Below the pieces are notes generated by a model that worked only from the letters and a program-made list of their open reading frames with translations, was not told where the DNA came from and ran no database searches. Source: Alphaproteobacteria bacterium (GTDB lineage Bacteria; Pseudomonadota; Alphaproteobacteria; ATCC43930; CGMCC-115725). From it: DNA of 64,000 bases. The translations under genes were made by a program, and so were the position numbers. Below, piece after piece: positions 6,894 through 18,018 of the stretch; the first letter of the stretch is position 1; the number at the start of each line of letters is the position of its first letter. Location of the stretch: positions 124,001 through 188,000 of the forward strand of contig JAGWON010000002.1 in assembly GCA_028871055.1 (NCBI GenBank), read 5' to 3'.

Positions 6894-8048
6894 TCAGCGC
6901 GCGCAGCGCTGCAACAGCCGGTGCATGAACGCCTCGCACTGCTGCACCTGGTCCAATGCTATGAACTCGTCCGGCCGGTGCGCCTGCTCGATCGAGCCCG
7001 GGCCGCAGATCACCGTCGGGATGCCGCCCTGCTGGTAGAGGCCGCCTTCGGTGGTGTAGCTGACCTTGCCGGCGGCGTTGGCGCCCGACAGCGCTTGCGC
7101 CAGCTGCGTCACCTCGGCGTCGGCTGCAGTCGAGAGCGGCGGTGTCACGTTGAGCTCGTCGAAGGCGATGCCGATCTCACGGCTCACCGCGCGCATCTCG
7201 GGCAGCAAGCCTTCGGCGAAGCGCTCGAGCTCCGCGCGCATCGCGCCGGGATCGTCGCCCGGCAGGTCGCGGATCTCGAACTCGAAGCGGCAGTCGCGCG
7301 GCACGATGTTGAGCGCGGTGCCGCCTTGGATGGTGCCGACATGGATCGTGCTGTAGGGCGGCGTGAAGTCGCGATCGAACGGACCCTCGCGGCGGCGCTT
7401 GCGCGCGATCGCCTTGAGGTGGGCGACGATCTCGGCCGCGCTCTCGACCGCGTTGACGCCGGCATGGGCGAGCGCCGAGTGCGCCTCGTGGCCGCGCACG
7501 CGACAGACGTAGCTGCGCTTGCCCTTGTTGGCGATCACCGGCTGCATCAGCGTCGGCTCGCCGATAATGCACAGCCGCGGCTTGACCTTGCGCCGGGCGA
7601 GCGCCGCGATCAGCGGCCGGACGCCGAGGCAGCCGACCTCCTCGTCATAGGTGATGCCGAGATGGATCGGCGTCTTGAGCGTGGCGGCAACGAACTCCGG
7701 CACCAGGGCGAGCGCGACGGCGATGAAGCTTTTCATGTCGGAGCTGCCGCGCGCGTAGAGCCGGCCATCCTTCTCGGTCGCCTTGAACGGCTCGCTGTGC
7801 CAGTCCTGGCCGTCAACCGGCACCACGTCGCTGTGGCCGGAGAGCAGAATGCCGGGCTTGTCCTCGGGCCCGATAGTGGCGAAGAGGTTGGCCTTGCGCC
7901 GGCCGGAATCGAACACCAGCTCGGAGGCGATGCCGAAGCCGTCGAGCCAGTCGCGCGCGAATTCGATCAGCGCGAGGTTGCTCTCGCGGCTGGTGGTGTC
8001 GAAGCCCACCAGCTTGCGAATCATCTCGACGGGGGACAGTGTCTTCAT
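6894..8048 (-). CDS. argE: Acetylornithine deacetylase
   Basis: Protein of 384 residues, the usual ArgE length. It is an M20 metallopeptidase-fold amidohydrolase that removes acetate from N2-acetylornithine in arginine synthesis. Visible metal and catalytic residues are SGHSDVVP (His72, Asp74), ARGSSDMKSF (Asp104), TYDEEVGCLG (Glu136 and Glu137), IGEPT, and the C-terminal TEGGLYQQ plus GPGSIEQAHRPDEF. The GPGxIxxAHxPDE ending favours ArgE over DapE or other M20 enzymes. It is divergent from the cation transporter at 8115. Confidence 0.9.
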   Translation of the reverse strand: MKTLSPVEMIRKLVGFDTTSRESNLALIEFARDWLDGFGIASELVFDSGRRKANLFATIGPEDKPGILLSGHSDVVPVDGQDWHSEPFKATEKDGRLYARGSSDMKSFIAVALALVPEFVAATLKTPIHLGITYDEEVGCLGVRPLIAALARRKVKPRLCIIGEPTLMQPVIANKGKRSYVCRVRGHEAHSALAHAGVNAVESAAEIVAHLKAIARKRRREGPFDRDFTPPYSTIHVGTIQGGTALNIVPRDCRFEFEIRDLPGDDPGAMRAELERFAEGLLPEMRAVSREIGIAFDELNVTPPLSTAADAEVTQLAQALSGANAAGKVSYTTEGGLYQQGGIPTVICGPGSIEQAHRPDEFIALDQVQQCEAFMHRLLQRCAR

Positions 8049-8114
8049 CCTGTCACTATGCCCTAGCGCCGGTTGACTGCGCTAGACTGCGCGCGGTTGG
8101 AATGGGCGTAACCG

Positions 8115-8762
8115 ATGAGCCGCAAGGCGAAGGCGAAGGCGAAGACGTCGTCCGATCGGCCGGCGCTTCTCCGGCGCGCGCTGGCGCTGGAGTGGATCAC
8201 GGTCGCATGGATGAGCGCCGAGGGCGCCATCGGGCTGTGGGCCGGCGTCACGGCGCGGAGCCTGAGTGTCCTCGCTTTCGGCGTCGACAGCGTGATCGAG
8301 CTGATCTCGGCCGGCGTGCTGCTGTGGCGCCTCATGGTCGAGATCAAGCGGCGCGAGAGCTTTGCCGAGGCCACCGAGCATGCCGCGCGGCGGATCGCCG
8401 GCGTCCTGCTGCTGGCGGTGGCGGCCGCGGTGGTCGTCGGCGCGGCGTGGCGGCTGTGGAGCCGCACCGGCCAGAGCTTCACGCTCGCGGGCTTCGCCGT
8501 CACCGCGCTCGCCGTGCCGCTGATGTACGTGCTGGCGCGGGCCAAGCTGTCGCTGGCTGACGCGCTCGGCAGCCGGGCGTTGCACGCTGACGCGGCAGAA
8601 TCGATCGCCTGCGGCTATCTCGCCTTCGCGGTCTGCATCGGCCTCCTGGCCCAGCTTGCGCTCGGCGCGTGGTGGGTCGACGCCGTCACCGCGCTGGCGA
8701 TCGTCTATTTCATCGTCCAGGAAGGACGCGAGGCGCTGGCGGACGAGCACGACCACGAATGA
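8115..8762 (+). CDS. Cation-diffusion-facilitator-like transporter (truncated type)
   Basis: Protein of 215 residues with five to six predicted membrane helices. A lysine-rich N-terminus is followed by a first helix region (EWITVAWMSAEGAIGLWAGV). FGVDSVIEL and LHADAAESIACG resemble the paired metal-binding helices of CDF transporters, where HxxxD/DxxxD ligands sit. The C-terminus ends in a histidine/acidic tail (EHDHE) and lacks the cytoplasmic CDF domain, as in short cation-transporter homologues. It probably exports a divalent metal; the metal is not predictable. Confidence 0.78.
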   Translation: MSRKAKAKAKTSSDRPALLRRALALEWITVAWMSAEGAIGLWAGVTARSLSVLAFGVDSVIELISAGVLLWRLMVEIKRRESFAEATEHAARRIAGVLLLAVAAAVVVGAAWRLWSRTGQSFTLAGFAVTALAVPLMYVLARAKLSLADALGSRALHADAAESIACGYLAFAVCIGLLAQLALGAWWVDAVTALAIVYFIVQEGREALADEHDHE

Positions 8763-8800
8763 CCGCCGGCGGGCGCGGCGCGCGACGACATGGCTTTTTG

Positions 8801-8907
8801 TCATGCGCGGGCTTGACCCGCGCATCCACGTCTTTTGCCGGCCAAGGCGTGGATGGCCGGGTCTGATCCCCGGGTCAAGCCCGGGGACGATGGCCCGGCC
8901 ATGACGG
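8801..8907. repeat. Intergenic palindrome, family A
   Basis: Compound palindrome between convergent genes. It reads TCATGCGCGGGCTTGACCCGCGCATCCACG, an inner AAGGCGTGGATGGCCGGGTC, then CCCCGGGTCAAGCCCGGGG and a closing GGCCCGGCCATGACGG. It shares ATCCACG/CGTGGAT and GGCCGGG/CCCGGCCATGAC with 2451-2523 and 17340-17370. Confidence 0.7.
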
Positions 8908-8925
8908 CGAAGTTAGCGGCGCGAA

Positions 8926-9696
8926 CTACGTCGCGAACTGCTCCTTCATCACCCGCTCGGCGAAGCTGTGCTCGGGATCGAATAGCAGCGTGAACGAGAC
9001 GTCGCGCGTCTGGCGCACCTCGACCGAGAGCACGTCGCGCACTTCGGTGTAGTCGGCGACCGCGGTCACCGGCCGGCGCTCGGCCTCGAGCGTCTCGAAG
9101 CGGACACGAGCGGTCTGTGGCAGCAGCGCGCCGCGCCAGCGCCGCGGCCGGAACGCGCTCACCGGCGTCAGCGCCAGCAGATCGGAGCCCAGCGGAATGA
9201 TCGGTCCGTGCGCCGACAGGTTGTAGGCGGTGCTGCCGACCGGCGTCGCCACCAGCACGCCGTCGGCCATCAGCTCGGGCAGCCGCACCTGGCCGTCGAC
9301 GCTGATCTTGATCTTGGCGACTTGGCGGCCCTGGCGGCTGAGCGACACCTCGTTGATCGCCAGCGCGCTGTGGGTCTGGCCGCGCACGTCGCGCGCGGTC
9401 ATCTCGAGCGGGTTGACCACCACAGGCTCGGCGCGCGCGATGCGTTCGTTGAGGCCGTCGGGACCGTAATTGTTCATCAGGAAGCCGACGCTGCCGCGAT
9501 GCATGCCGTAGAACGACACCTTGCGGTCGAGATAGCGGTGCAGCGTCTCGAGCATGAAGCCGTCACCGCCGAGCACGACGATGGTCTCGGCCTGCTCGGG
9601 CGGCGTGCCGCCATAGCGGCTCTTGAGCTCGGCGAGCGCCTTTTGCGCTTCCGGCGCGTCGCTCGCGACGAAGCCTATGGAGCTGTCGGCGGCCAC
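8926..9696 (-). CDS. nadK: NAD kinase
   Basis: Protein of 256 residues, typical of the short alphaproteobacterial NAD kinases that phosphorylate NAD to NADP with ATP. The signature [11 protein letters not shown] (residues 43-53) supplies the catalytic Asp, followed by [10 protein letters not shown] (NE motif) and [22 protein letters not shown], the conserved nucleotide-binding block. The start is a GTG 10 bases after the moaA stop, so it probably shares the moaA transcript. Confidence 0.92.
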
Positions 9697-9706
9697 GTTG
9701 GTCGGG

Positions 9707-10705
9707 TCAGCCGCCGGTGACGCTCATGTGGCGCGGCACCGCCGGCGCCTGGTTCCGGCGGTCGATGACGAAGTCGTGGCCCTTAGGCTTGCGCGCAATC
9801 GCCGCCCGAATGGCGTCCTCGAGCGGTTCGTCGCTCTCCGACGCGCGCAGCGGCGTGCGCAAATCGGCGGCGTCCTGCTGGCCGAGGCACATGTAGAGCG
9901 TGCCGGTGCAGGTCAGCCGCACGCGGTTGCAGCTCTCGCAGAAATTATGCGTCAGCGGCGTGATGAATCCGAGCCGCCGTCCGGTCTCGCGCACCACGGT
10001 GTAGCGCGCCGGTCCGCCGGTGCGATAGTCGGTTTCGTCGAGCGTCCATTTCGTCTTGAGCTTCGCGCGCACGACGGACAAGGGAAGATATTGGTCGAGC
10101 CTTGCCCCTTCGCCGAGCTCGCCCATCGGCATGACCTCGATCAGCGTCTGGTCGAAGCCTTGCTCGCCGCACCAGGCGATGAGCTGGTCGAACTCGCCGT
10201 CGTTGACGCCCTTGAGCGCCACCGTGTTGATCTTGACGCTAAGACCGGCGTCCTTGGCCGCGCGCAGCCCGTCCAGGACCTGGTCCAATTTGCCCCAGCG
10301 CGTGATGGCGGTGAACGTCGCCGTGTCAAGCGTGTCGAGCGAGACGTTGATCCGCTTCATGCCGGCGGCTTTCAACTCGGTCGCGTAGCGCGAAAGTTGG
10401 CTGCCGTTGGTGGTGAGGGTGAGCTCGTCGAGGTCGCCACTCTGCAGATGGCGGCCGAGCGCGCGGATCAGCGCCATGACGTTGCGCCGCACCAGCGGCT
10501 CGCCGCCGGTGAGGCGGAGCTTGCGCACGCCGAGGCGCACGAAGGCGCCCGCCGTGCGGTCGAGCTCCTCGAGCGTCAGCACCTCGGCCTTGGGCAGGAA
10601 CGCCATGTCCTCGGCCATGCAATAGACGCAGCGGAAATCGCAGCGGTCGGTGACCGAGACGCGGAGATAGGTGATATGGCGGCCGAAGGGATCGATCATA
10701 GCCAT
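9707..10705 (-). CDS. moaA: GTP 3',8-cyclase (molybdenum cofactor step 1)
   Basis: Protein of 332 residues from the ATG at 10705 (an ATG at 10699 also fits). It is a radical-SAM enzyme converting GTP to 3',8-cyclo-GTP, the first committed Moco step. The N-terminal 4Fe-4S motif CDFRCVYC (Cys22, 26, 29) is intact, LTGGEPL is the SAM-binding stretch, and the second cluster [12 protein letters not shown]...C is present near residues 258-275. The protein ends in VTGG, matching the functional double-glycine tail. It lies 115 bases downstream of the type II DMSO-reductase gamma gene in the same direction, suggesting cofactor supply for that enzyme. Confidence 0.95.
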
Positions 10706-10819
10706 GGGCAAGATATAAGCCGGCGAGGGCGCCTAGCATAGCGCGCGACGCGGAATTGTCGCCCCCGATTTCCGCAGGGGTATTCAGGGGGTTGGCTGCG
10801 GCCGGCCAATGGGACCGAT

Positions 10820-11563
10820 TCAGCGTCCGGCGCCGATTTGGGTACGCTCGCCGAACGCGAGTTGCTGCCACTGGAGCGTGACCGCTTTGAAACCATCCCG
10901 CTCTTTATTGGCACCATTCCAGACGGCGAAGGCGACCGGCAGGTTCGTACCCGGTTTGACCTGGAGGGTGACGTTGTCGTCCCCCTGCGGTTTGACCGCG
11001 CGATGGAACACCACGGTCCATATTCCATGAGCGTACTTGCCCGACGCCTTGACATCTTGCACCGGTACGTGGGTTAGGGTGCCGAAGCCGTTGGCGACGA
11101 GGTTCTCCGCCGCGTTGTTGCTCGCGTTCCAGTACCAGATGTTGACGCGTCGGCCGTCGCCTCCCATGTACGGCAGCGTTTCGGCACTTCCGTCGGCGGC
11201 GAATTCGACCGCAACGGCGTCGGCGAATTGGCCGATGCCGCGGCGCTGGTCCTTTGAGGGGTTCTTCCACTGAAGACGGATGAATAATTCGTTCTTCGAT
11301 TTTGCCGCTTGGGCTTTCAGTTCGGTGGTGGTTGCCACGCCGACAATGGAAGGATGCCCGGGAGGCGCCGTGGTCACCGCCACGCGCGCCTGAGGCACGG
11401 ATTTCCATACCGTGCCGGCCGGATTGGCCAGTGCACCCGTCTTGCCCTGGGCGACGACGATCGTGGCGGGCGCGGAATCCTGGGTTTCGCCAAGCGCCGC
11501 GCCGGCAAGGGAAACGCCGGCAACCGTCGCCATGGCAAGGCAAAAGCGTCTCATGCTCTTCAT
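10820..11563 (-). CDS. Type II DMSO-reductase-family heme b (gamma) subunit
   Basis: Protein of 247 residues with a Sec signal peptide (MKSMRRFCLAMATVAGVSL, cleavage near ALG-ET). It matches the periplasmic heme-b subunit of ethylbenzene dehydrogenase, DMS dehydrogenase, and selenate and chlorate reductases. Met133 (in LPYMGGDG, followed by NIWYWNA) and Lys226 (in ERDGFKAV) align with the Met/Lys heme ligands known for EbdC-type subunits. The ATG at 11563 follows the chaperone stop by one base and has GAGGGG upstream. It would pass electrons between the FeS subunit and a periplasmic carrier. Gene order A-B-D-C matches ddh, ser and clr operons. Confidence 0.87.
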   Translation of the reverse strand: MKSMRRFCLAMATVAGVSLAGAALGETQDSAPATIVVAQGKTGALANPAGTVWKSVPQARVAVTTAPPGHPSIVGVATTTELKAQAAKSKNELFIRLQWKNPSKDQRRGIGQFADAVAVEFAADGSAETLPYMGGDGRRVNIWYWNASNNAAENLVANGFGTLTHVPVQDVKASGKYAHGIWTVVFHRAVKPQGDDNVTLQVKPGTNLPVAFAVWNGANKERDGFKAVTLQWQQLAFGERTQIGAGR

Positions 11564-11564
11564 G

Positions 11565-12233
11565 TCAGTCCCCTCGCTCGAGGTTTGTGTCGCCGATCGG
11601 GCGTTCGTCGACGGCGCCCACTTCGGCAAGCGCGTCGCCGACGACCTCCCTGTGCACGCGAGTGAAGGCGCCGAGCCAGGAAGCGAGCGTTGAATAGACT
11701 CCGCGATCGTCGCCGAACCGCCGTTTTTTCATCTCGGTCGCCCAGACCAGGACGTGACGGTCGAGGAAGTCTCTCTGCGCCAAGCGGAAAGACGTGGGAT
11801 CGCGCCCCGCCTTCAATGCCGCGGCCTCCAGTCCGACCAGGTGCATCATGAACTCAAGCTCGGTGACGACGTGGTCGGGGAAATCCCGGTTCCGCTCGCT
11901 AAGCCGGACGGCGAAGTAATGGTAGAAGCGGAGCAGTTCCTCCTGAATTCCGTCGCGCCCATCCCGGGGTCGGAAGCTGCCTTCGTAGAGTGGCATCTCG
12001 CCAACTTCGAACAGGCTCAGGTAGATGCTGGCCCGCTCGTCCTGGCTGCGGACGGGGAACACGTAGTCTCGGTCCAGGCCGTCAGCATCGTCGTCGACGA
12101 CATCGCCGGATAGCTCGCTGACTGTCCGCCCTTCCAGCTGTGCCCACAGCTCGTCGTTGGGATAGCCGAAAGCTTTGGATAGCACGGCGTAGGTGGCGCC
12201 GATCGCATCCAGTGTCTCGATCGCCGCGGTCAC
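11565..12233 (-). CDS. TorD-like chaperone of a type II DMSO-reductase-family enzyme (D protein)
   Basis: Protein of 222 residues, mostly helical, of the TorD/NarJ/DdhD chaperone group that binds the Mo subunit and its twin-arginine signal until cofactor is loaded. The family motif is seen as RDFPDHVVTELEFMMHL (near residues 115-131), with YLSLFEVGEMPLYEGSF upstream. The GTG start overlaps the beta-subunit stop as GTGA (12230-12233), indicating translational coupling. It is not found in the mature enzyme of related systems. Confidence 0.86.
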   Translation of the reverse strand: MTAAIETLDAIGATYAVLSKAFGYPNDELWAQLEGRTVSELSGDVVDDDADGLDRDYVFPVRSQDERASIYLSLFEVGEMPLYEGSFRPRDGRDGIQEELLRFYHYFAVRLSERNRDFPDHVVTELEFMMHLVGLEAAALKAGRDPTSFRLAQRDFLDRHVLVWATEMKKRRFGDDRGVYSTLASWLGAFTRVHREVVGDALAEVGAVDERPIGDTNLERGD

Positions 12234-13207
12234 AGCGCGAACCTGTCCTTGTTGGTGTAGCCGATGAGAATATCCGTCAGTTCCGAGGGCTGGGCTTGCC
12301 GACGCTTGTTCATCTCGCGGCCCAGCGTAGCCAGCGCCGGCCCGACTCCCTTGCCGAAGAGCGCTTCCAAATCAGCGATCGGAATGCGCGCCTGAGCGCT
12401 GATGCGTCCATCCTCCTCGAACATCAGGGGCGTGGTGTTGATCGGCGGCACGTAGAAGACGTTGGGCTCGGTGCCGTACTCGGCATGAAGCGGCAAAGCC
12501 ACTTTCCATTTGTCCACCAGCTTGTAGATCGGCCCGTTCGTGTCGTCGCGGTAACCCCAGAAGCGGACGCGCCCGGTGCACTGCTTGACGCAGGCCGGAG
12601 GCTCGCCCTTTTCGATCCGCGGATAGCAGCCGATGCACTTCGCGGATTTGCCGGTCTGGAGGTTGAAATACACCTTGCCGTAGGGACAGGCCTTTACGCA
12701 GTACTGGTAGCCGCGGCAGCGCTTCTGATCGAGTACAACCAGCCCGTCCTCCGGCCGTTTATAGATCGCCTGGCGCGGGCAGGCGGCAAGACAGGCCGGG
12801 TTCGAACAGTGATTGCAAATCCGCGGCAGGTAAAAATAGTGGCCGTTCGGATACTTGCCCTTGCCCTGGTCTTCATCCCAGTTCGGCCCGGCGGTCGGCG
12901 TCTTGTCCGGCACGACTTGGTTACTCGTGCCGTCCAGCAGCACCTCCTGGAAGTTGTAGTTCCACACCTCGCCGTAAGCTTCCGGCGCCGGGATATTGCC
13001 GTCGGCGCGGAGCTGGCCATGCTCGTCGAAGCCGCCGCCTTTCTGCTCCCAGTTCTTCGGATAGCCAGTGCCGGGCCGTGTTTCCACGTTGTTCCAGTAC
13101 ATGTATTCGCGGCCGTCGCGATTGGTCCACAGTTGCTTGCAGGCCATCGTGCAGGTATGGCAACCGATGCACTTATTCAGGTCGAATACGTAACCCACCT
13201 GTCTCAT
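12230..13207 (-). CDS. Type II DMSO-reductase-family iron-sulfur (beta) subunit
   Basis: Protein of 325 residues with four ferredoxin-type cysteine groups: CIGCHTCTMAC (residues about 13-23), CNHCSNPACLAAC, CRGYQYCVKAC and CIGCYPRIEKGEPPACVKQC. In the third group a Tyr replaces the second Cys, which in NarH/EbdB-type subunits goes with a 3Fe-4S cluster. Long conserved stretches (GREYMYWNNVETRPG, GPNWDEDQGKG, HYFYLPRICNHC, YGTEPNVFYVPP) are typical of DdhB, SerB, ClrB and EbdB. There is no signal peptide, so it is probably co-exported with the Tat-targeted alpha subunit. The ATG at 13207 lies 11 bases after the alpha stop. Confidence 0.9.
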   Translation of the reverse strand: MRQVGYVFDLNKCIGCHTCTMACKQLWTNRDGREYMYWNNVETRPGTGYPKNWEQKGGGFDEHGQLRADGNIPAPEAYGEVWNYNFQEVLLDGTSNQVVPDKTPTAGPNWDEDQGKGKYPNGHYFYLPRICNHCSNPACLAACPRQAIYKRPEDGLVVLDQKRCRGYQYCVKACPYGKVYFNLQTGKSAKCIGCYPRIEKGEPPACVKQCTGRVRFWGYRDDTNGPIYKLVDKWKVALPLHAEYGTEPNVFYVPPINTTPLMFEEDGRISAQARIPIADLEALFGKGVGPALATLGREMNKRRQAQPSELTDILIGYTNKDRFAL

Positions 13208-13218
13208 GGTCTGCGCCC

Positions 13219-15978
13219 TCAAGCTTTCTCTACGTCGACGGTCGTCTCGTGAAAGATGCGGTTCGGGTTGTATCCACCCGACGCATACTTGATGTGGCCG
13301 TAACCGCCGACCAGCTCCAGCGGATTGATCAGCTCGGAGCTGACCATGTTGTAGTGAGTCATGTTCTTGTACTGGTACTGCTCCCAGCCATGCTCGCTGA
13401 ACAGCATGTTCTCGGGCAGGGCAGGCCAGGGTTTTGCGGTGGCGTAGAACTCGCCTGACGAGTTGAAGATGCGCACCGTGTCGCCGTCCCGAATGCCTTT
13501 CGCTGTCATGGCCTTCGGGTTCATGCGCACGTCTGGAGCGCCGCGCTGCTGACGCAACAGCCATTCCGAGGTGCGGACAAAGGAATGGATGCCCCAGCGG
13601 GTGTGGGGCGTATTGCGCACGAAGGGGTACTTCTTTGGCCCCAGCACGCCGCCGCCGTATTGCGGTTTCGGCACCGTCGCACCGAAGCGTTGGAACCAGT
13701 CGTGGTCGACGTAGAATTGCAGGCGTCCGGTCAGGGTTCCGTACGGCTTCTTCTCGGTGACGTTTACCGTGAAGGGGCGATAGGGTTTGTCCGCCGGCAC
13801 CGGAGCCGTCTTGCCAGCCGAGGGGCCGACGGCGACGAAGCCGTTCTTCAGCAGTTCCTCGTAAGTGCCGGGGCCAAGCGCCTTCGACTTCTCCATGACG
13901 TAGCGCAACGCATCCTCGTCGCGGGCGATGACGCCCTTCATGGTGAAGTCGTCGTAGATCTTGTCGAAATCGATGGCGCTCTTGATCTCGGGGTCATCCA
14001 CGCGGGAGATGCCGCGGGCCTTGGCGCGCTCCTGGATCTTGGCGGCGAGGGCCACGCCGATCTGCCAATCGGTCTTGCGCTCGTACATCGGCTTGATCGG
14101 CTGGCCGAAGGCGTGGATGAAGCGCGTCACCGAGGTTTCGCGGATGTCGAGCTTCTCGGTGTTCTCCGCTACCGGCAGCACGATGTCGGCGTACATGGCC
14201 CCCGAGTTGACACGGAAGTCCGCCACCACGAACAACTCGCAGCGCTTAAGGAAGTTATCCCGCAGATGCTGATACCCGTTTGACGTGGCGAAGGTGTTGA
14301 TGCCGGCGTTGATGTAGACCACAGGGTCCTTGATCGACTGCCAATTCGGCATCCAGCCCTTGGCCTCGGATTCCTTGCGCAGGGTCTCCATGTCGTCGAT
14401 GCCGAATCCGATCTCCGCCCGCAACTGCTTGTCGTCGTAATAGGCCTTGGAACGCCGGTACTGCTCGCCCCATACCCACTGGGCCAGCACCATTGACACG
14501 CTGCGACCAGGCTTGCCCTTCACGCCGCCGATTTCCTTTGCTCCCTCCAGCTTCCAGCCCTCGTACGTGGCGTCATAGGAGCCGGTGGTGCCGTGGTGGC
14601 CGATGAGGGTCACGATCAGAATTTTCAGGCGGCCGCATTGGAAGCCGTCGAAATGCTTCTGATTGTTGTAGCCGTCAAGGATGCGCAGCGCCTTGCACTC
14701 GCCGATCCACGCGGCCAGCTTGCGCACCACGGACGGGTGCACGCCGGTGGTTTTCTGGGTAGCCTCCGGCGTGTAGGCGGCGATCTCGGCCTTCAGGCGC
14801 TCGAACACGGTGGTGACCCGAACGCCGTTGGCGTCGAAGGTTCCTTCCAGCGCCGGATCGATCTCACCGAGCTTGAGGGTCTTGTCCTTGCTCCCCATGC
14901 TGCCGGGGGCCATCACCGCCTTGCCGGTGCTGACGTCCCACACGTAGAAGACCTGGTCGCTGCCGTCCGCCTTGAAGTCCTTCTCGCGCAGGAACTTGCC
15001 GTTGTCGGTGCGCACCAGGAAGGGCAGGTCGGTCTGCTCCTTGAGATAATCGGCCTTGTACTTCTTTTCGGCGATCAGAACGTTGACGATCGCCGCCGCG
15101 AGGTGCGAGTCGGTGCCGGAGGCGACCGGGACATACAGATCGGAGTGAACCGAAGAGGGATTGTAGTCGGGCGAGATGTTCACCAACCGCGCCCCGTTGT
15201 AACGCGCCTCGGTGAGGAAGTGGGCGTCGGGAATCCGAGTGACGATCGGGTTTATGTGCCACATCAGGATCAGGTCGGACGTGAACCAGTCGTCGAACGT
15301 CGACGTGGTGCGCGCCGGCATCCTTACCGTCTGGACGCCGGGATAAAGGTCGCCGGTCATCGAGGACACGTCCGGCTTGATGGCGCCCAGCAGGCCGGCG
15401 AGCCGCCCATAGGCCTTGTTGCTGATGACGGCGAAGGGACGCTGGGCGACGAGGATGTTACCCGGCCCGCGCTTGAGCGTGGTGTCGATGATCTTGTCGG
15501 CGATTTCGGTGAGCGCCTCGTTCCAGGAGATGCGTTTCCACTTGCGCTCGCCGCGGGCGCCGACGCGCTTCAGCGGCCACTTGAGATGATCCGGCTGCTT
15601 CGACCATGAGCAATAGACGGCGCCCTTCTGGCAGCCGCGCGGATTCATGTCGGGGATGCCGGGCAGCTGGGGATATTTGGCGACCTGCTCTTCCCGCATC
15701 GGGATGCCGTCCTTGACGTAGACGTTCCAGGCACAGCCCGCCATGCAGCCGTTGGAATGGGTGATGAAGCCCACAGCGTCCCAAGTCCACTCCTTGCGGT
15801 AGAGGTCTTCCCAGCCGCGGTAGGGATAGTCGCCCTTAAGCGGGTCGGTGATCGGCTCGATCTTGGTCAGGGCGAACGCCTTCGACGACAGGGCCAAGCC
15901 GGCGACCGTGCCACCCGCCAGTCGAATGAAGCCGCGCCGATTGACGAAACCCTGATGCTCCGGATGATTAGCGGTCAT
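13219..15978 (-). CDS. Type II DMSO-reductase-family molybdopterin (alpha) subunit
   Basis: Protein of 919 residues. A twin-arginine signal is at the N-terminus ([19 protein letters not shown], Arg14-Arg15), so it folds with Mo-bis-MGD in the cytoplasm and is exported. The FS0 4Fe-4S motif is His74-x3-Cys78-x3-Cys82...Cys116, the His-first pattern of the nitrate/ethylbenzene/selenate/chlorate group. SMTGDLYPG contains Asp210, a candidate for the Mo-ligand Asp of type II enzymes. The substrate could be an oxyanion, DMS or a hydrocarbon; sequence alone does not decide. An ATG at 15993 is possible, but 15978 has GAGG upstream. An FNR-like box lies about 95 bases upstream. Confidence 0.92.
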
Positions 15979-16067
15979 TATTACTGGCCTCATGTCCGAC
16001 AGAGGAATTCCTAATGATCGCGCCGCCAAGCGCACCATTACCTATTGGTCGTGCCGCATCGAAGGCG

Positions 16068-16081
16068 TTGACGCAGATCAA
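16068..16081 (-). promoter_or_regulatory. FNR/Anr-type box (TTGAC-N4-ATCAA)
   Basis: The sequence TTGACGCAGATCAA differs from the FNR/FixK consensus TTGAT-N4-ATCAA at one position. It sits in the 332-base region between the alpha-subunit start (15978, minus) and fdhD (16311, plus), centred about 96 bases from the alpha ATG. If used at a class II position it would place transcription start near 16033. It predicts low-oxygen induction of the operon. Nothing else assignable was seen in the rest of 15979-16310. Confidence 0.55.
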
Positions 16082-16310
16082 TCGTCAAAAGGGTGTGGCG
16101 TTACATCGCAGCAATCGAGCGACCATTTTTTCGCTCGGTTCAACTGTGGGCGGCTTTTGCGGTGCTCTCCATCGGTCCGACAAGGAACACGGCGTCACGC
16201 GTGAATCGACCGCTCTGCGACGCGGTGCCGCCACAGCTCTCGTTAACCCGCTGGTCGGGACGATTCCCCCGACCTTGCACGGGCCCGGCGCAAGCCCCAT
16301 CATCTTGACC

Positions 16311-17192
16311 ATGAAGGAATTCGCCATTAGGCCGAATCCCGACGATCCGCGCCTGACGCGTACGGTGCCGGGCGTCGACGAGAGCGGCCGGCGCATCGAG
16401 ACCCAGGTGGTAGTCGAGCGGCCGTTGACCCTGTTCCTCAACGGGCAGGAGATCGTCACCATGATGACGGTCGGCGACTATCCCGATTATCTCGCCGTTG
16501 GCTATCTCGCCAACCAGAACATGCTGCGGCCGGACGACACGATCACCGGCATCGACTACGACGAGGAGCTCGAGACCGTGGTCGTGCGCACCAAGCGCAA
16601 GACCGACTACGAGAAGAAGCTGCGCAAGAAGACGCTCACCTCGGGCTGCGCCCAGGGCACCGTGTTCGGCGACCTGATGGAGAAGTTCGACGACATCCGG
16701 CTCGATCCCAAGGCGATGCTCAAGACGTCATGGCTCCATGCCCTGACCAAGAAGATCAACACCAGCCCGAGCCTCTATCTCGCCGCCGGCGCGATCCACG
16801 GCTGCGTGCTGTGCGAGGAAGACCGGCCGCTCGTCTACATGGAAGACGTCGGCCGCCACAACGCCATCGACAAGATCGCCGGCTACATGCGCATGAACAA
16901 GGTCTCGCCCAAGGGCAAGATCTTCTACACCACCGGCCGGCTGACGTCGGAGATGGTGATCAAGACGGTGCAGATGCAGGTTCCGATTTTGGTCTCGCGC
17001 TCGGGTTTCACCGCCTGGGGCGTCGAGCTCGCGCGCAAGGCGAACCTGACTTTGATCGGCCGCGCCAAGGGCAAGCGCTTCGTCGCGCTGTCGGGCGAGA
17101 CGCGCATCGTGCGCGACGACGACGGCGCGCGGGTCGAAGGCGAGGGTCCGCGCCATCGGCGCAAGGCGTCGCTCGCCGAGGACGCGGTGTGA
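16311..17192 (+). CDS. fdhD: FdhD-family sulfurtransferase for Mo enzymes
   Basis: Protein of 293 residues. FdhD carries sulfur from a cysteine desulfurase to bis-MGD before insertion into formate dehydrogenase or related enzymes. Family features are VVERPLTLFLNGQEIVTMM, PDYLAVGYLANQNML, the active loop TLTSGCAQGTVFG, HGCVLCEEDRPLVYMEDVGRHNAIDKI and TGRLTSEMV. The loop has one cysteine (Cys113) rather than the CxxC of E. coli FdhD; the retained one aligns with the first. No formate dehydrogenase is in the window; the nearest client is the divergent type II enzyme. Longer in-frame starts upstream would run through the FNR-like box and are less likely. Confidence 0.92.
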   Translation: MKEFAIRPNPDDPRLTRTVPGVDESGRRIETQVVVERPLTLFLNGQEIVTMMTVGDYPDYLAVGYLANQNMLRPDDTITGIDYDEELETVVVRTKRKTDYEKKLRKKTLTSGCAQGTVFGDLMEKFDDIRLDPKAMLKTSWLHALTKKINTSPSLYLAAGAIHGCVLCEEDRPLVYMEDVGRHNAIDKIAGYMRMNKVSPKGKIFYTTGRLTSEMVIKTVQMQVPILVSRSGFTAWGVELARKANLTLIGRAKGKRFVALSGETRIVRDDDGARVEGEGPRHRRKASLAEDAV

Positions 17193-17250
17193 CCGTTCCC
17201 GGCCGGTTGTCATGCCCGGAAATGTGTCGGGTATTCATGGTTTTTCTTTC

Positions 17251-17370
17251 GTCATTCCCGCGCAAGCGGGAATCCAGGGCGGCTGCTGTGCGGCGGCCCT
17301 GGACCCCTGCTTTCGCAGGGGTGACGACAGGAGAAGACGTGGATGGCCGGGTCAAGCCCGGCCATGACGA
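17251..17370. repeat. Composite intergenic palindrome, families C and A
   Basis: Left half: GTCATTCCCGCGCAAGCGGGAATCCAGGGC and GCCCTGGACCCCTGCTTTCGCAGGGGTGACGAC (family C). Right half: GACGTGGATGGCCGGGTCAAGCCCGGCCATGACG (family A). It fills most of the 193-base gap between fdhD and mobA. The two families being fused here suggests one element inserted beside the other. Confidence 0.7.
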
Positions 17371-17385
17371 AGGCGGAGATGTGCG

Positions 17386-18018
17386 GTGATCGTTGCAGGC
17401 GTCTTGCTGGCGGGCGGGTTGTCGCGGCGCATGGGCGGCGGCGATAAATCCCTCCGCGTCCTGGCCGGAGCGACCATCCTCGAGCGCGTGATCGCGCGCG
17501 CGCGGTCGCAGGTGGTTGCACTGGTACTGAACGCCAACGGCGATCCGGCGCGCTTCGAAGATTACGGCCTGCCGGTGGTTGCGGACAGCATACCCGACTT
17601 CGCCGGGCCGCTCGCCGGCGTGCTCGCCGGGCTCGATTGGGCGGCGGCGAGTGTCGCCGGCGCCACGCATGTCGCCAGCTTCGCCACCGATGCGCCGTTC
17701 CTGCCGGCCAACCTGGTCGCGCGGCTGGCCGACGCGGTGAAAGACGGGCGCCACGATCTCGCCTGCGCGGCGTCCGACGGCCGCAGCCATCCGGTCTTCG
17801 GCCTGTGGCCGTTGGCGTTGCGCGAGGATTTGCGGGCGGCGCTCGGCGCCGGAATGCGCAAGGTCGATCAATGGACGGCGCGCCATCGTCTGGCCGTCGT
17901 CGAATTCGCGGCCCGGCCCTATGATCCGTTCTTCAACGCCAATACGCCGGACGATTTGAGCGAAGGCGAGCGGGTCAGCCGCGCGGCGGACGCGGCCCGG
18001 CGGACCGTGCCGGGCTAA
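17386..18018 (+). CDS. mobA: Molybdenum cofactor guanylyltransferase
   Basis: Protein of 210 residues with a GTG start. It transfers GMP to Mo-molybdopterin, giving the guanine dinucleotide form used by the DMSO-reductase superfamily. The nucleotide-binding start VLLAGGLSRRMGGGDKSL, FATDAPFLP (metal-binding Asp), and the late FFNANTPDDL (usual FxNxNTPxD) are all present. It is therefore the direct maturation partner of the bis-MGD enzyme at 13219-15978. Confidence 0.93.
   Translation: MIVAGVLLAGGLSRRMGGGDKSLRVLAGATILERVIARARSQVVALVLNANGDPARFEDYGLPVVADSIPDFAGPLAGVLAGLDWAAASVAGATHVASFATDAPFLPANLVARLADAVKDGRHDLACAASDGRSHPVFGLWPLALREDLRAALGAGMRKVDQWTARHRLAVVEFAARPYDPFFNANTPDDLSEGERVSRAADAARRTVPG

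Follow-up and report, generated by a model that had tools for sequence, protein, structure and literature searches.

A probably acquired SerA/ClrA-type operon with mosaic-looking subunit blocks between host cofactor genes of an alphaproteobacterium

What does the four-gene molybdoenzyme operon on contig JAGWON010000002.1 of an Alphaproteobacteria bacterium (GenBank assembly GCA_028871055.1) act upon, and how did it come to stand between the cofactor genes moaA and fdhD? The stretch analyzed here, hereafter the window, comprises 64,000 nucleotides (contig positions 124,001 to 188,000) and carries genes for the alpha, beta, delta and gamma subunits of the enzyme in the order A-B-D-C. On balance, we favor the reading that this is an acquired, mosaic operon of the serABDC/clrABDC type, which would encode a soluble periplasmic oxyanion reductase, most likely for selenate. 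The alpha subunit, with its molybdenum-bis(pyranopterin guanine dinucleotide) (Mo-bisPGD) cofactor and twin-arginine signal, would be exported together with the iron-sulfur (Fe-S) subunit beta and would reduce the oxyanion in the periplasm. The bc1 complex would feed a periplasmic c-type cytochrome, which would hand its electrons to the heme b of gamma; from there they would pass through the Fe-S clusters of beta, with delta serving as a maturation chaperone. The operon would have brought its own FNR-type element and would have been inserted between the host moaA and fdhD genes. The insert would itself be mosaic, combining alpha and beta from the SerA/ClrA clade with delta and gamma from an outer lineage.

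By profile matches and alignment, the operon is a type II dimethyl sulfoxide (DMSO)-reductase-family operon with an Asp ligand to molybdenum and A-B-D-C gene order. Among the open reading frames (ORFs) of the window, the four minus-strand genes are intact and open throughout, and their neighbors are present. The NCBIfam models TIGR03479 (alpha, 1328.8 bits; cut-off 984.75), TIGR03478 (beta, 563.7; cut-off 480.7) and TIGR03477 (gamma, 180; cut-off 169.85) are matched above their cut-offs, and delta matches TIGR03482 below the cut-off (132.5 against 152.3 bits; E 1.9e-38). The longest ORF of alpha extends to position 16038, a start at Met21 being assumed, and contains the twin-arginine signal NRRGFIRL. 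The Mo-ligand Asp of alpha, residue 230 of the longest ORF and 210 counted from the likely Met21, is conserved, the GD of alpha aligning with the GD of PcrA (4ydd_A). Beta contains 15 Cys residues and can be aligned over almost its full length to 4ydd_B and 2ivf_B, both of them beta chains. PDB homologues were found at E 1e-150. The window enzyme thus resembles 4ydd, which we take to be the perchlorate reductase PcrAB, and EbdABC (2ivf) in sequence and in the aligned Asp but is much more distant, and the residues F and Y at PcrA positions 164 and 165, presumably gate residues, are V and S in the window alpha. The longest ORF of gamma begins at TTG, and a start at Met23 is assumed; Met155 and Lys248 in the TTG numbering then become Met133 and Lys226. 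EbdC has a Met and a Lys at the aligned positions, and we take these to be its heme-ligand residues; the pair is invariant in all 24 aligned gamma sequences. Met/Lys heme ligation is reported for EbdC (PMC8840923), and the heme b of gamma is predicted to be ligated in the same way. The preliminary description of this locus had named the family, the gene order, Asp210 and Met133/Lys226, and these calls hold, the numbering on the condition that Met21 and Met23 are the starts of alpha and gamma, respectively; the Mo-ligand Asp, proposed there as the check on the type II call, is present in the alignment with PcrA.

Alpha is a member of the SerA/ClrA group by both identity and tree position. The best of 442 matching plasmid records are the annotated chlorate reductases on the named plasmids of Ideonella dechloratans and Alicycliphilus denitrificans BC (82.2% identity over 98% of the query), and the remaining 440 stay below 60%. 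Thauera SerA and Ideonella ClrA are reported to share 83.6% identity (PMC12724226), and both proven substrates therefore fall at the distance of alpha. A scan of named genomes yielded 33 related loci, or 35 (L029-L063) with the two plasmid clr loci (L029 and L030). The trees omit L010, L062, L051 and L049 (partial or distant) and L063 (short match); L036 contributed alpha only, the gamma tree further omits L054, L056 and L060, and the combined delta and gamma tree further omits L057. In the 32-row alpha tree, the window alpha lies within a 24-row clade (support 100/100) that contains both ClrA sequences. It groups with L031 and L032 (100/96), the latter 88% identical, and then with L033 and L053 of Sedimenticola (100/98). 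The resulting group lies outside the ClrA clade and is its sister (94/96); L034, L035 and L046 are further members of the ClrA clade. Sedimenticola selenatireducens is reported to use selenate and to possess two such operons, one resembling clr and the other serABDC (PMC5052931); from clade membership and elimination, we take L035 to be the former and L033 the latter. The earlier statement that the substrate is not determined was too open, given an alpha inside the SerA/ClrA group. The tree proposed at the same time did place alpha in that clade, with SerA of Thauera connected through the published identity only and DdhA not among the rows. The contig of L031 is binned as Stygiobacter (Ignavibacteriota), a label that may be wrong.

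The delta and gamma subunits appear to fall outside the SerA/ClrA clade that holds alpha, as judged by the approximately unbiased (AU) test. Together with L031, the window groups with L048, a locus labelled Rhodospirillales and the nearest one of the outer lineage, in the delta tree (98/89), the gamma tree (97/99) and the combined tree (100/98). Holding the window and L031 with the inner rows is rejected (p 0.0302 for delta, 0.0185 for gamma and 0.0158 combined), and a clade of the window, L031 and L048 is rejected for alpha and beta (p 6e-77, quick tree). The long branches flagged for L048 and L045 call for caution. The groupings were named after the trees had been seen, so that the AU p values are optimistic. 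Assignment of beta to the delta and gamma block was considered and rejected: beta carries inner-clade signal, and the AU test does not reject its inner-clade position (p 0.248).

Site counts give the same division. They were taken at positions where the inner-clade reference rows agree and L048 differs, with the inner state given first and L029, L032, L033, L034 and L050 as controls. For alpha, the window scores 75 to 2 and L031 72 to 4 (controls 70-81 to 0-4); for beta, the values are 27 to 2 and 32 to 1 (controls 30-35 to 0-2). For delta, the window falls to 6 to 6 and L031 to 7 to 7 (controls 20-25 to 0-4), and for gamma they score 11 to 10 and 12 to 11 (controls 21-28 to 1-4). L039, a near-basal row of the clade, shows 16 to 2 for delta and 20 to 4 for gamma. 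When L045 replaces L048, the window scores 2 to 3 for delta (controls 12-15 to 0-1) and 12 to 7 for gamma (controls 16-22 to 0-2), so that the gamma contrast is weaker with L045. L032, despite its 88% identity in alpha, has inner-clade delta and gamma. The breakpoint would lie near the border between beta and delta, at about position 12230.

The same delta and gamma pattern could arise as a rate artefact if the two subunits had evolved fast in the window and L031 and had been drawn to the long L048 branch. The branches of L048 and L045 are indeed long, the rate of evolution is higher in delta and gamma than in alpha and beta, the AU p values reach only 0.016-0.03 for groupings chosen after the trees, and the pattern occurs in two rows only. 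However, the controls keep inner states, including L033, which has a long delta and gamma stem and yet scores 20 to 0 for delta and 21 to 4 for gamma, unlike the window. We consider an artefact of rate doubtful, though deserving of some weight, and the operon is probably a natural chimera in which SerA/ClrA-clade alpha and beta are joined to outer-lineage delta and gamma near the beta/delta border. That the operon looks mosaic in this way is a new observation of this analysis; among the titles and abstract openings listed for mosaic or transferred operons of the family, none reports an exchange of this kind, which does not show its absence from print.

An FNR-like box precedes the operon. Within the 64 kb, the pattern TTGAYNNNNRTCAA is matched once (expected 0.13; at least one match in 12 of 100 shuffles), by the sequence TTGACGCAGATCAA, which lies about 80-95 bp before the start of alpha and within the DNA that sister genomes lack. 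Such a box occurs within 500 bp upstream in 12 of the 25 related operons tested, compared with 1.75% of 4000 random stretches from the same loci. The test omitted L049, L051, L054, L056-L060, L062 and L063 from the 35 loci, and at L051 an FNR-like box precedes the match by about 180 bp. In Ideonella, cld is reported to be under FNR control through a similar box (PMC7349173). The window operon may be regulated likewise, and beta would be exported along with alpha. The host genome encodes a proteobacterial Rieske protein above the model cut-off, which makes a route from the bc1 complex through cytochrome c to gamma plausible. Elsewhere in the host genome, three loci with Mo-enzyme genes (L125, L126 and L129, on G000 C30 and C33) have two FNR-like boxes each, consistent with a host FNR regulon.

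A selenate-type oxyanion is favored over chlorate on three grounds: the position of alpha outside the ClrA clade, the lack of a chlorite dismutase (Cld) match in the genome and a Mo-ligand loop without the ClrA changes. The host genome, which is 99.05% complete, gave no Cld match (PF06778, E 0.001), and the same search was positive in 7 of 14 control genomes. Among the 35 related loci, only the two plasmid loci have a Cld match, both with cld beside the operon; the flanks covered at most 10 kb at the 33 genome loci and were often shorter. The 13-residue Mo-ligand loop is identical in 22 of the 24 alphas of the SerA/ClrA clade (the window and 21 others), and the exceptions are the two Cld-linked ClrA sequences, which are nearly identical and count as one lineage. 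The window operon is like the Ser-type operons in these respects, since the Sedimenticola proxy L033 shares the clade and the loop and has no Cld match at its locus either. It also has the A-B-D-C order reported for SerABDC of Thauera selenatis (PMC12724226). It differs from the Ser type in its delta and gamma, which appear to belong to another lineage, and in adjoining a host moaA.

Chlorate respiration with a chlorate reductase like Ideonella ClrABDC is the principal alternative for the function. The identity of alpha to ClrA and the shared gene order fit it, and of 72 Clr/Ser-discriminating positions the window agrees with Clr at 38 and with Ser at 19, the other 15 having neither state. These positions were defined from five Clr-clade and two closely related Sedimenticola Ser-like alphas and give no decision between the two types. 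Unlike the plasmid clr loci, the window has no match to Ideonella cld, cyc, mobB or arsR. Together with the three grounds given above, this leaves chlorate an unlikely substrate. Beyond the Clr majority at the discriminating positions, other points weigh against a selenate reductase. S. selenatireducens itself is reported to use chlorate and perchlorate as well, with peptone (PMC5052931). The FNR-like box of the pattern used is lacking in 13 of the 25 related operons, including the nearest ones, L031 and L032, and also L033. Finally, the sequence fixes neither the substrate nor the direction of catalysis, an oxidative direction being compatible with it. The case for selenate or a related oxyanion as the substrate is, in our judgment, evenly poised.

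The two plasmid-borne clrA genes merit a separate remark. Those of Ideonella (L029:14007-16751) and Alicycliphilus (L030:14007-16751) differ at 9 of 2745 bases and in 8 residues. The Mo-ligand loop, 13 residues long, contains 3 of the 8 (post hoc P 1.2e-4), and one more lies just ahead of it. The clrB and clrD genes are identical between the two, and clrC differs at 2 of 720 bases. Selection on the active site of the transposon-borne ClrA is possible.

Dimethyl sulfide (DMS) dehydrogenase, DdhABDC, has the same subunit set and gene order as the window operon. With the Met/Lys pair also conserved, an enzyme of this kind, in which a small substrate is oxidized and gamma carries the electrons out, has to be considered. 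The reported heme potentials of DMS dehydrogenase (+324 mV) and ethylbenzene dehydrogenase (EbDH; +256 mV) suit a cytochrome c acceptor (PMC8840923). However, alpha belongs to a clade of reductases, namely ClrA and, by published identity, SerA (PMC12724226), and the FNR-like boxes point to anaerobic induction, which makes a dehydrogenase very unlikely.

The operon occupies a site that is empty in the three other genomes of the genus (the sisters G001, G002 and G003). G001 and G003 have nadK-moaA-fdhD-mobA without the operon, with a moaA-fdhD gap of about 155 bp. The fdhD-mobA contig of G002 ends in a moaA start (96% identity over 47 residues) with the same spacing, and nadK-moaA lies on a second contig. 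On the moaA side, the DNA aligns with all three sisters at 87-88% up to about position 10807; on the fdhD side, the alignment (89-91%) resumes at about 16265 in G003, 16270 in G001 and 16291 in G002. The extra DNA, about 5.46 kb, consists of the A-B-D-C operon and its leader. Its guanine-plus-cytosine (GC) content is 62.1% compared with 67.9% on each side. GC at third codon positions (GC3) is 0.806 in beta, 0.789 in delta and 0.750 in gamma, against 0.844-0.922 in five host genes; that of alpha, at 0.863, is higher than in host mobA (0.844) and lower than in the other four (0.895-0.922). The occupied and empty states of the site between host moaA and fdhD are well supported.

Horizontal acquisition of the operon is most likely. 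An operon that was ancestral in the genus and cleanly lost in three sisters would be compatible with the empty site taken alone. It would also fit the compared ends, where about 70 bp per end contain no inverted match longer than 7 bp, the longest direct match at the junctions is 6 bp, and the four genes and leader fill the segment with no room for a transposase gene; transposon ends were sought and rejected. However, the alpha type is present in only one of the four genomes of the genus, one of 385 of the class (two others match at 34-37% identity) and, at E 1e-200, one of 398 of the phylum, in each case the host genome. In addition, the nearest alphas are those of L031, L032 and Sedimenticola, the GC content of the segment is lower, and so is the GC3 of beta, delta and gamma. 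Ancestry with loss is accordingly quite improbable, and the difference among the sisters presumably reflects gain.

The moaA, fdhD and mobA genes were described earlier as parts of a compact module with the enzyme (positions 8926-18018). The named genes are present in the order given, with moaA, fdhD and mobA all above model cut-offs, and nadK also lies inside this span, which the earlier text left unmentioned. The module does not stand, however: the three sisters lack the operon and yet have moaA adjoining fdhD and fdhD adjoining mobA, which rules out a dedicated cofactor module. The window moaA is the sole MoaA above the cut-off in the host genome, which contains three FdhD genes. Other Mo enzymes there also need the cofactor genes, with three formate dehydrogenase alphas above the cut-off and a tetrathionate-reductase-like protein below its own. 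The one-cysteine FdhD, previously called unusual, is by its motif a conserved subfamily: among 30 FdhD loci of the host genome and its relatives, 17 have GCAQG (that of the window included), 8 have GCG[LM]CG and 5 are unreadable at that column, and the one-cysteine form also occurs in sisters without the operon. A same-strand moaA lies within the fetched flank at 10 of 33 related loci, and placement of the operon upstream of the native moaA thus recreates a common neighborhood. The L031 moaA is 57-60% identical to the best 13 moaA genes listed from the host genome and its relatives. Co-evolution of the enzyme with moaA, fdhD and mobA as one module, which their adjacency and these flanking moaA genes might suggest, is highly improbable in view of the sisters and of a window moaA that is native (Table 1) and only 59% identical to that of L031.

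Some further features were observed at other sites. Between argE and nadK (positions 8048-8926), the window contains a membrane protein gene (8115-8762, plus strand), cation-efflux-like by eye; G003 has about 65 bp between argE and nadK, a further small difference from that sister. Locus L123 of the host genome (G000:C29; C29:52000-68000) encodes the alpha subunit of a formate dehydrogenase-N, and an in-frame TGA in this gene may be a selenocysteine codon. In the 41-genome set, a more distant type II set is present in the same-family genome G015 (L010, G015:C590; 871.7 bits, below the cut-off), with identities to Clr of 33% for alpha, 55% for beta and 36% for gamma. A distant type II set on a Haloferax plasmid (L145) comprises a Mo subunit, a 4Fe-4S protein, an ethylbenzene dehydrogenase-related protein and a TorD-like protein, adjoined by genes for a bc-type cytochrome b and a Rieske protein.

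Table 1. Features of the operon and its surroundings in window coordinates
Feature	Coordinates	Strand	Evidence
alpha, Mo-bisPGD catalytic subunit, SerA/ClrA type	13219..15978	-	TIGR03479; identity to ClrA; tree; Mo loop
beta, Fe-S subunit	12230..13207	-	TIGR03478; homologue of 4ydd_B and 2ivf_B; inner-clade signal
delta, TorD-like chaperone, divergent type	11565..12233	-	TIGR03482; groups with L031 and L048
gamma, predicted exported heme b subunit, Met/Lys, divergent type	10820..11563	-	TIGR03477; EbdC alignment; groups with L031 and L048
segment missing from three sister genomes	10808..16264		flank alignments and GC; ends approximate to a few bases
FNR-like box TTGACGCAGATCAA	16068..16081		sole match in the window; upstream of alpha
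moaA, host gene outside the insert	9707..10711	-	TIGR02666 above cut-off; 89-91% to full-length sister moaA
nadK, host gene	8926..9696	-	NF003406 above cut-off; same place in sisters
fdhD, one-cysteine GCAQG subfamily, host gene	16311..17192	+	TIGR00129, 142.5 against 140.9; 91-93% to sisters
mobA, host gene	17386..18018	+	TIGR02665 above cut-off; same place in sisters

An uncharacterized operon is thereby assigned to a defined enzyme group, as a further SerA/ClrA-type operon with a probable swap of subunit blocks. The comparison of occupied and empty sites indicates that an anaerobic respiratory operon can sit as a bare unit beside host cofactor genes. The clade also bears on the origin of ClrA: the two Cld-linked ClrA sequences lie nested within operons whose examined flanks yielded no Cld, and this pair alone departs from the conserved Mo loop among the 24 alphas. 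If the mosaic is true, type II enzymes would be able to swap their catalytic half and their electron-entry half in nature, and when operons change hosts, the half that determines the substrate and the half that faces the host and takes in electrons would exchange as units.

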